Part shown: positions 5,247 to 12,634 of the stretch, in pieces
How positions within the stretch are numbered: position 1 is the stretch's first letter
Layout: each line of letters opens with the position of its first letter
DNA from: a virus
DNA length: 23,148 nucleotides
Strand: one strand, 5' to 3'
IMG/VR virus record: IMGVR_UViG_3300030107_005474
Coordinates: 1-23,148 of that record
The notes under the pieces: model-generated
The model's input: the letters and a program-made list of their open reading frames with translations, nothing else
Databases searched by the model: none
What the model was told of the DNA's origin: nothing
Program-made: the position numbers and the translations under genes

Positions 5247-5268
5247 AGAGAGATTCGTCTCTCTTTTT
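5245..5268 (+). terminator. Rho-independent terminator with TTCG loop
   Basis: AGAGAGA (5247-5253) and TCTCTCT (5258-5264) form a perfect stem closed by a TTCG loop and followed by a T run. It begins within the stop codon of the 73-aa gene. Confidence 0.9.
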
Positions 5269-5520
5269 AGAACTCACTGCGTTCGTTCATTTAAATTATA
5301 TATAGATAAATATGTGTGGCCAAAATAACACCAGAGTGATTAAGTAACTACGACTAAAACTCAAACACATATGACTTCATAATATTTAGGTTAATATTAA
5401 ATACAGGTTGGAAAGGTTAGTAATACAAATAATTTATAATTGCTGTTATACTTTGTGTGTGATTACAATTCCTTTCCTTCCTTTTGCAATCAAATGAATG
5501 TATAATTAAATTATAATGAA
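5269..5520 (+). other. Non-coding leader upstream of the secreted-protein gene
   Basis: No gene is seen. A distant inverted pair GGAAAGG (5410-5416) and CCTTTCC (5471-5477) could form a stem around a 54-base loop. Inside it is TATACTTTG (5448-5456), which resembles the -7 box with a three-base instead of two-base spacer and could serve the gene at 5521. A pyrimidine-rich tract follows at 5471-5485. Confidence 0.35.
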
Positions 5521-6031: not shown

Positions 6032-6403
6032 ATGGCAAAAACAACAAAGAAAGCTACTAAGACAGTAGCAAAGAAAGTAGAAGCAGAAACTACTAAAGCA
6101 CAATCTACATTAGTTCCTAATCTATTTATTACTGACCATACTTATAAGACTGGTACAACTGTAATAAATGTAGGTATTAAATTACCAGACTTTATTGACT
6201 TCCTTAATAATAATAAGAGAGTAAGTAAAGATGGTAACTCTTGGGTTAACATCAAGTTAATACCATCAAGTAAAGAGAATCGTTCTCATGTTCCTGTGCT
6301 AGATGAATATTGGCATAAGGACGCTCAAGCTTTAGCTAAAGATATATTTAGTGAAGACTTTGAGAAAGAAAGTAGAGCGGTAGAAAATAAAGTTACTGCA
6401 TAA
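6032..6403 (+). CDS. Hypothetical 123-aa protein with histone-like basic N-terminus
   Basis: Residues 1-25 are a Lys/Ala/Thr repeat like the basic tails of histone H1 or HU-type proteins, suggesting nucleic-acid contact. The remainder (about 28-115) appears to be a compact alpha/beta domain that I do not recognise. The start follows an A-rich leader of the kind Bacteroidota use for initiation (TATAAAATG). The gene is followed by the long-stem terminator and the tandem structured RNAs at 6411-6573, and may be co-transcribed with them. Confidence 0.7.
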   Translation: MAKTTKKATKTVAKKVEAETTKAQSTLVPNLFITDHTYKTGTTVINVGIKLPDFIDFLNNNKRVSKDGNSWVNIKLIPSSKENRSHVPVLDEYWHKDAQALAKDIFSEDFEKESRAVENKVTA

Positions 6404-6410
6404 TAATTAT

Positions 6411-6483
6411 AAGAGAGAGTATTAAAGAGCGTTACGTACAAAATAGGATAAAGTCAACGCGCCTATATTAATACTCTCTTTTT
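6411..6483 (+). terminator. Long-stem terminator with pseudoknot-capable loop
   Basis: AGAGAGTATTAA (6414-6425) pairs perfectly with TTAATACTCTCT (6468-6479), extendable to 15 pairs with the flanking AAG/TTT, followed by a T run. The 42-base loop can form GCGTT/AACGC (6429-6433 with 6456-6460) and ATAGG/CCTAT (6443-6447 with 6462-6466). These interleave, so they would be a pseudoknot. The connecting loop of a single base (6461) is tight, so the two helices may alternate rather than coexist. It would terminate the 123-aa gene. Confidence 0.65.
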
Positions 6484-6573
6484 AAGAGAGATAACAAATC
6501 CCTAGGATATCAGGTAGGCAATGCCTTTTAAGACTTAAATGCGCCACATTATCCAAGGGCGCAACTCTCTTTT
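6484..6573 (+). ncRNA. Structured RNA element with predicted pseudoknot
   Basis: AAGAGAG (6484-6490) pairs with CTCTCTT (6565-6571) and encloses a compact fold: hairpins AGGC/GCCT (6516-6526) and TTTAA/TTAAA (6527-6539), a GCGCC/GGCGC hairpin (6541-6562), and GGATA (6505-6509) paired with TATCC (6550-6554) inside that hairpin's loop, giving a pseudoknot. A T run follows the closing stem. The element shares TAGGATA and GCGCC with the preceding element. It matches no RNA family known to me; a riboswitch-like leader of the gene at 6645 or an independent small RNA are both possible. Confidence 0.5.
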
Positions 6574-6644: not shown

Positions 6645-7010
6645 ATGAACAAACAATTTGAATTAACTGACGAGTATATTAAAAAATTGAAAACACTATT
6701 ACGTATGAAGAAAATTACATCTTATGATGTGGCACACGCCTCTTTTAGAAATGCAAATCAACATTGTATAATTAGTTCTACAGATAAAAGAGAATTAACA
6801 ATTACATTTGTAAATGGAGATGTAAAGAAATTTCCTTCAATTATATCTTTATTAAATGAAGTAAAGATAATTAATAAATGGTATAAAGAAGCTAGAAGAA
6901 AATATATCAAAAGATATTATAAAGTAATAGGAAAATGGAATAGTAGGCATAATAATAAAGCTCCTAAACAAGAGCAATTTCAAGCCTTGATTGAAAAATA
7001 TAATATATGA
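6645..7010 (+). CDS. Hypothetical 121-aa basic protein
   Basis: The product is strongly basic, with a central beta-like segment (about residues 40-65) and a C-terminal Lys/Arg/Tyr-rich helix (about 75-100) that could bind nucleic acid. No family is recognised. It is the first gene of the early run that continues to 10192 and lies directly behind the structured RNA region. Its stop overlaps the next start as ATGA. Confidence 0.7.
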   Translation: MNKQFELTDEYIKKLKTLLRMKKITSYDVAHASFRNANQHCIISSTDKRELTITFVNGDVKKFPSIISLLNEVKIINKWYKEARRKYIKRYYKVIGKWNSRHNNKAPKQEQFQALIEKYNI

Positions 7011-12467: not shown

Positions 12468-12634
12468 TGGCAAATAAAGATAAAGATAAAGATAGTGATA
12501 TCCCATTAAGTCAAAAACCATGGGACCCATCAACAATGACTTATGACCAACTTGGAGAATTTTTAGGAAAAACATTATCTAAACTCCATGAAGAAGAAAT
12601 GAAAAAAATAATAAATAAAAAGAAAAAGAAATGA
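12467..12634 (+). CDS. Hypothetical 55-aa charged protein
   Basis: The frame starts in the stop of the Rad52-like gene (TAATG) and ends in the start of the SSB-like gene (ATGA), so it fits exactly into the operon. The product has a Lys/Asp repeat at the N-terminus, a short middle helix and a run of Lys at the end. It may be an accessory to its neighbours; unknown. Confidence 0.6.
   Translation: MANKDKDKDSDIPLSQKPWDPSTMTYDQLGEFLGKTLSKLHEEEMKKIINKKKKK

Follow-up and report, generated by a model that had tools for sequence, protein, structure and literature searches.

What are the two RNA structures that lie end to end between two phage genes without assigned role, and to which gene do they belong? 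The window, that is the whole stretch of DNA analysed here, is an A+T-rich virus record of 23,148 bases and comes from a marine phage, probably one of Bacteroidota. Its plus-strand early region encodes a DnaB helicase, an Erf-like annealing protein (PHROG match, 6e-27), a RusA-like resolvase, and HU-like and DnaA-C-like proteins. The structures occupy positions 6411-6573, between genes 6032-6403 and 6645-7010, neither of which gave a match in Pfam/PHROG searches. A sequence-only reading had described them as pseudoknotted RNAs that could adopt two mutually exclusive global folds.

Homologues of gene 6032 in six distant loci (L175, L181, L184, L187, L188 and L195) carry the C-terminal residues DLPF, an SSB-like tip which is missing from the window's clade. 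These DLPF-tailed homologues are the sole hint towards an SSB, as a fold search with the protein of gene 6032 itself found no match to a solved SSB fold. For the protein encoded at 12631, which we name ssb, no protein family was matched; it ends in EEDLPF, and its model weakly resembles OB-fold proteins (PrgE, E 6e-4). Among annotated phages no match was found to genes 6032 and 6645, to ssb or to the RNAs, and a profile search of bacterial genomes with gene 6645 found no relative.

Terminator hairpins enclosing folded domains

The features of the tandem and its flanking genes are as follows.

6032-6403, plus strand: gene upstream of the tandem; in most of its distant homologues the C-terminus is DLPF, as in SSB tails
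6411-6483, plus strand: element 1, a terminator-embedded RNA domain, with homologues at the same site in L015, L016-L018, L023 and L019
6411-6425 with 6468-6482, plus strand: closing stem of element 1, followed by a T-run to 6483
6429-6433 with 6456-6460, plus strand: inner helix of element 1, GCGTT with AACGC, with AC/GT flanks and one bulge
6443-6447 with 6462-6466, plus strand: candidate pseudoknot helix of element 1, ATAGG with CCTAT, present and invariant in four distinct sequences
6484-6573, plus strand: element 2
6645-7010, plus strand: gene downstream of the tandem

The sequences named in the earlier reading are all present at their positions, the AGAGAG/CTCTCT closing stems of both elements form, and a T-run follows each. 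The tandem folds at -46.9 kcal/mol with a z of -4.4 against chance; element 1 alone reaches -4.3 and element 2 alone a weaker -2.5. Both elements are real, strand-specific structures. Furthermore, in the window as well as in L005, L015, L016 and L019, each element present has a G+C-containing stem that runs directly into a stretch of U, as intrinsic terminators do, and both are hence predicted to be intrinsic terminators holding folded domains. That two adjoining structured RNAs without known family lie here, each with a terminator-like closing stem, is thus borne out.

Loci with homologues of gene 6645 were compared at the same intergenic site, which displays four states among these relatives. 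Element 2 stands alone in L005 and element 1 alone in L015, L016-L018, L023 and L019, a plain terminator hairpin, AAGAGAGAGTC-CATGT-GACTCTTTCTTTTTT, is found in L020-L022, and both elements occur together in the window only. Given these four states at a single site, AGAGAG/CTCTCT is to be read as a terminator stem with the elements as its inner domains. The words TAGGATA and GCGCC, which the earlier reading took as shared, do occur in both elements, but their structural positions are not equivalent. Just upstream of the terminator site, two relatives show candidate structured elements of their own: at L019:5779-5845 ATTGATT...AATCAAT closes a GACGC/GCGTC pairing, and at L020:1013-1057 CACACT...AGTGTG closes GTCC/GGAC.

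Element 1 is found in close relatives only. Its inner helix is predicted in L015 and L016 and partly in L019, and is invariant in three of four sequences. For GCGTT/AACGC and ATAGG/CCTAT together, 98.7% of the cells are paired and no both-side change is seen, in a set of four distinct, near-invariant sequences. A resemblance to UUAACGA...CGGUAA made element 1 a candidate member of family D (see below); it was rejected, as the covariance model R3 finds no element 1 in the survey and scores higher on the minus strand than on the plus strand when run on L016 alone.

A constant shell with an exchangeable inner domain

Element 2 can be divided into a shell of three helices and an inner domain.

6484-6573, plus strand: element 2, a terminator-embedded RNA with a constant shell and a type 2A inner domain, found in 15 further loci of distant phages and showing covariation
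6484-6490 with 6565-6571, plus strand: P1, AAGAGAG with CTCTCTT, with both-side changes at 7 of the 12 modelled P1 pairs in 13 sequences
6491-6499 opposite 6560-6564, plus strand: internal loop J1, ATAACAAAT opposite CGCAA, the most conserved part
6500-6503 with 6556-6559, plus strand: P2, CCCT with AGGG, where C-G at the base of the helix changes to U-A and U-G
6505-6509 with 6550-6554, plus strand: P3, GGATA with TATCC, changed to GGGTA/TACCC and others
6510-6549, plus strand: variable inner domain, type 2A, TCAGGTA-hairpin-TTTTAAGAYTTAARTGCGCCA

Relatives were sought with R2, a covariance model for which the copies of the window and of L005 were the only input, in 52 loci that had been reached by a DUF932 protein profile. 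R2 matched 15 further loci at E values from 6e-14 to 0.01, with one match per whole record. Where both flanks could be located, the element stands 8-17 nt past the last matched codon of the ssb-like gene and 20-28 nt before the rusA match, a position at which the window has 7 bases only. Most relatives thus carry element 2 behind the ssb-like gene and before rusA, which makes it doubtful that it is a leader of gene 6645, as had been proposed. The tandem elements behave as 3'-end modules of the preceding gene. At the ssb-rusA site, the U-run behind the stem is broken in most copies (AAATTTATTATTATC), so that termination by element 2 might be weak at this position. The spacer between element 2 and rusA in relatives holds TATCTTTG or TATATTTG, which we take to fit the Bacteroidota -7 element TAnnTTTG, and because of this promoter-like element rusA need not rely on readthrough.

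Pattern searches added little: among the matches listed for a 14-base core pattern of element 2 most were random, a longer pattern recovered L005 and chance matches only, and the shell pattern found in bacterial genomes one chance match lacking the 3' half. When the flank from L184 was compared with annotated phages, only a promoter-like stretch in Polaribacter phages was matched.

From the outside inwards the shell reads P1 (GAG/CUC plus variable pairs), an AUAACARAU/YGMAA loop, P2 (YCCU/AGGG), an A opposite an A, and P3. In 13 distinct shells 86.6% of the pair cells are standard. Both-side changes occur at 11 of 19 pairs compared with 6.3 in shuffles (sd 1.3), and the covariation score is 0.255 against 0.134, with slid controls at or below 0.117; the inner part was removed from this alignment by hand, which leans it towards the proposed fold, and the slid controls offset this partly. 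Within J1 the R and M positions are coupled, A going with C in 8 cases and G with A in 5. Well-supported branches of the ssb tree force at least two changes of this label, which could also be explained by recombination of whole elements. As A-G opposition adjoins G-A or A-C, tandem sheared pairs may be suspected. A kink-turn has tandem sheared G-A pairs beside a bulge of three nucleotides; the oppositions in J1 would fit it, and the bulge geometry is not a clean fit.

The covariation bears directly on the pseudoknot that had been proposed for element 2, GGATA/TATCC through the loop of GCGCC/GGCGC. The first helix is real and corresponds to P3; the second shows no both-side change in 9 sequences, GCGCC/GGYGC varying on one side only. 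Moreover, members that lack GCGCC keep the 3' strand GGGYG just as constant, and this strand pairs with CCCU in P2, hence the nested P2 and P3 constitute the general fold of element 2. Two type 2A members, L170 and L183, have a mismatch in P2 and keep CGCC/GGUG, which RNAalifold also chooses on the 2A set; in 2A members this pairing may therefore form as a modelled alternative.

Inside this shell the sequence is far less constant. Nine distant loci have the 2A inner domain in common with the window and L005, and unrelated inner sequences fill the same shell in L180, L181, L186, L187 and L191/L196. L191 and L192 have near-identical flanks and different inner domains; L178 and L186, sisters on the ssb tree, differ in the inner domain too. 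Element 2 thus represents a conserved RNA family of phages, in which the shell is near-constant and the inner domain is replaced wholesale between relatives.

Further modules embedded in terminators

Terminators with long loops were counted in 28 loci of the clade: 27 lie on the gene strand and 2 on the opposite strand, and segment-wise shuffles gave 0-5. Counted on both strands, long-loop stems amount to 0.64 per kb of noncoding DNA in the clade and 0.41 in unrelated viral loci of higher G+C; since such stems are not rare in the latter, the enrichment in the clade rests on the shuffles and the strand bias. A frame of the form AGGTTG-stem...stem-CTTCCTT occurs 14 times on the plus strand and never on the minus strand. 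One of its copies is a third module in the window, outside the stretch first described.

5405-5488, plus strand: family C module, with the frame AGGTTG-GAAAGG...CCTTTC-CTTCCTTTT

The borders of these families were set by blastn and by eye, and some families may merge. Pairing is complete (100%) in families C and P, with both-side changes at 5 of 16 and 4 of 18 pairs respectively. For each of the families E2 (element 2), C, D and P, two gene contexts are known from these loci: C after gene 5025 (window 5405-5488, L015) or after gene 6645, D before or after gene 6645, and P after DUF932 or after gene 6645. Downstream of the small membrane gene 5025 of the window there is also a simple terminator-like hairpin at 5247-5270, AGAGAGATTCGTCTCTCT followed by a T-rich stretch, with the same AGAGAG stem, and recombination might draw on this hairpin for repeated stems.

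Family P is a three-helix RNA (GCGUGUGGCCACGGAAUGAUAACUAA...) present in about ten loci and at two sites; the stem of the terminator that encloses it is replaced by compensatory changes. Family D has an invariant core, CUUAACGAAUA...ACGGUAAACUAG, and a variable inner hairpin and outer terminator stem. Copies of these families, and some long RNAs closed by terminators, are located as follows.

L180:4629-4694, L188:2890-2963, L170:2363-2442, L175:3086-3161 and others: family P
L185:1208-1281, L195:2295-2370, L175:3238-3301: family D
L170:2015-2265, L167:1178-1426, L202:2053-2188: long terminator-closed RNAs

Tandem arrays are recurrent, as in L170 (Fa, Fb, P) and L175 (P, an unnamed module, D). 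L170 and L167 carry two long terminator-closed RNAs of 110 and 136 nt in tandem, and the second of these, shared by three phages including L202 at 97-99% identity, may have spread recently. Another RNA, of 180 nt (L195:1651-1830), lies between a gene 6032 homologue and gene 6645 and is closed by AGAGAAGG/CCTTCTCTT followed by a T-run.

We tentatively consider it possible that this phage lineage uses a pool of interchangeable terminator-hairpin RNA modules, which all contain a conserved folded domain, move between sites, stack in tandem and often have a replaceable inner arm. Terminator loops are usually regarded as filler, and here they carry conserved RNA families missing from Rfam, with different inner domains in one constant shell and the same module at different genomic sites. 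If such a pool exists, it would represent an RNA-based layer of regulation or counter-defence, with domains exchanged in the manner of protein domains; confirmation would add several RNA families and would mean that phages reassort RNA domains inside terminators.

Possible roles and nearest known systems

We give about an even chance to the reading that both elements of the tandem are composite intrinsic terminators, which lie at the 3' end of the early transcription unit of gene 6032 and end or gate its transcript. The structures, their strand specificity, the covariation of the shell, the exchange of inner domains and the differing genomic sites back this composite terminator reading. The loop of each terminator hairpin would have been replaced by a folded RNA domain; in element 2 the conserved shell would be the functional part and the inner arm exchangeable, and element 1 would be a second, clade-restricted module. 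Transcription would usually stop at the U-run. The conserved internal loop might bind a ligand or a protein, of phage or host, and either this binding or co-transcriptional folding would tune readthrough into the next gene or guard the 3' end of the upstream mRNA. The modules may be shuffled by homologous annealing at their short repeated stems, perhaps via the Erf-like annealing protein. One site of element 2 follows ssb and the other follows gene 6032, most distant homologues of which have the DLPF tail; control by an SSB-like protein would be a guess from this and not a finding. Phage gp32-type autoregulation offers a precedent, but one that acts in the 5' leader.

Alternatively, the modules could work in trans as stable small RNAs (antisense, decoy or counter-defence), with the terminator making their 3' end and the inner swaps varying the target. 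The persistence of the shell while inner domains are replaced wholesale would suit such RNAs, as would several families per genome in tandem arrays, reminiscent of small-RNA islands, and a 2A inner sequence kept across distant phages. However, conservation peaks in the internal loop of the shell rather than in an exposed loop, the modules stand at most about 20 nt past the upstream stop codon at most sites of elements 2 and 1, and a promoter of their own is not established, hence we regard this as rather unlikely. Distinctly unlikely, in our estimate, is a ligand-sensing riboswitch or protein-binding attenuator, where the bound state of the shell would itself determine whether transcription continues into the next gene. 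The conserved internal loop with its non-Watson-Crick covarying position and an architecture that parallels the HMP-PP riboswitch (PMC6478431) speak for it; different genes follow the two element 2 sites, however, no metabolic gene is linked, and the TAnnTTTG-like element separates element 2 from rusA.

The switch between pseudoknotted folds, as first proposed, is very improbable. Its helices are allowed by the sequence and the minimum-energy fold of several 2A members takes CGCC/GGUG, but GCGCC/GGYGC lacks both-side covariation and the alternative CTCTCTT/AAGAGAG pairing between the elements costs about 4 kcal/mol more (-42.9 against -46.9), with a pairing probability of 0.011. This alternative is confined to the window genome because its two terminators abut, and where a relative has one element only (L005, L015, L016, L019) the partner strand is missing, so that a conserved two-state switch is not supported. 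Still less probable is an element that works as DNA (cruciform, recombination or replication site) and is transcribed incidentally: module positions do vary between genomes and lie near replication genes, but T-runs and long-loop stems are nearly all on the gene strand (27 against 2; 14 against 0) and the helices contain G-U pairs.

Searches with Rfam 15 at the gathering threshold gave no match in the window or in 13 relative loci, relaxing to E <= 10 yielded best E values of 0.8-4.3 with scores far under gathering, a tRNA search found none, and we found no description of these RNAs in open-licence papers. The nearest architecture is that of the HMP-PP (thiS motif) riboswitch, whose aptamer is embedded in the terminator stem, often in tandem after another riboswitch, and whose loop is unusually conserved for a terminator (PMC6478431). 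The layout idea is alike, an RNA domain within an intrinsic terminator stem and in some cases in tandem with another terminator element, but the present RNAs are probably not members of that class. The domain here is larger and matches nothing in Rfam, the phage genes ahead of it are unrelated, its inner part can be exchanged, and the flanking genes are 6032 and 6645 or ssb and rusA instead of the thiamin genes to which HMP-PP riboswitches are linked.

In the known attenuators and riboswitches with terminator platforms, the aptamer mostly precedes the terminator and belongs to the 5' leader of the gene under control. They share with the present modules a structured RNA coupled to an intergenic terminator; here, in contrast, the domain lies inside the hairpin and close behind the upstream gene. 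The put and nut antitermination RNAs of HK022 and lambda are phage structures which act on the elongating polymerase and suppress downstream terminators. Both they and the modules described here are phage RNA structures, the latter being parts of the terminator hairpins themselves.
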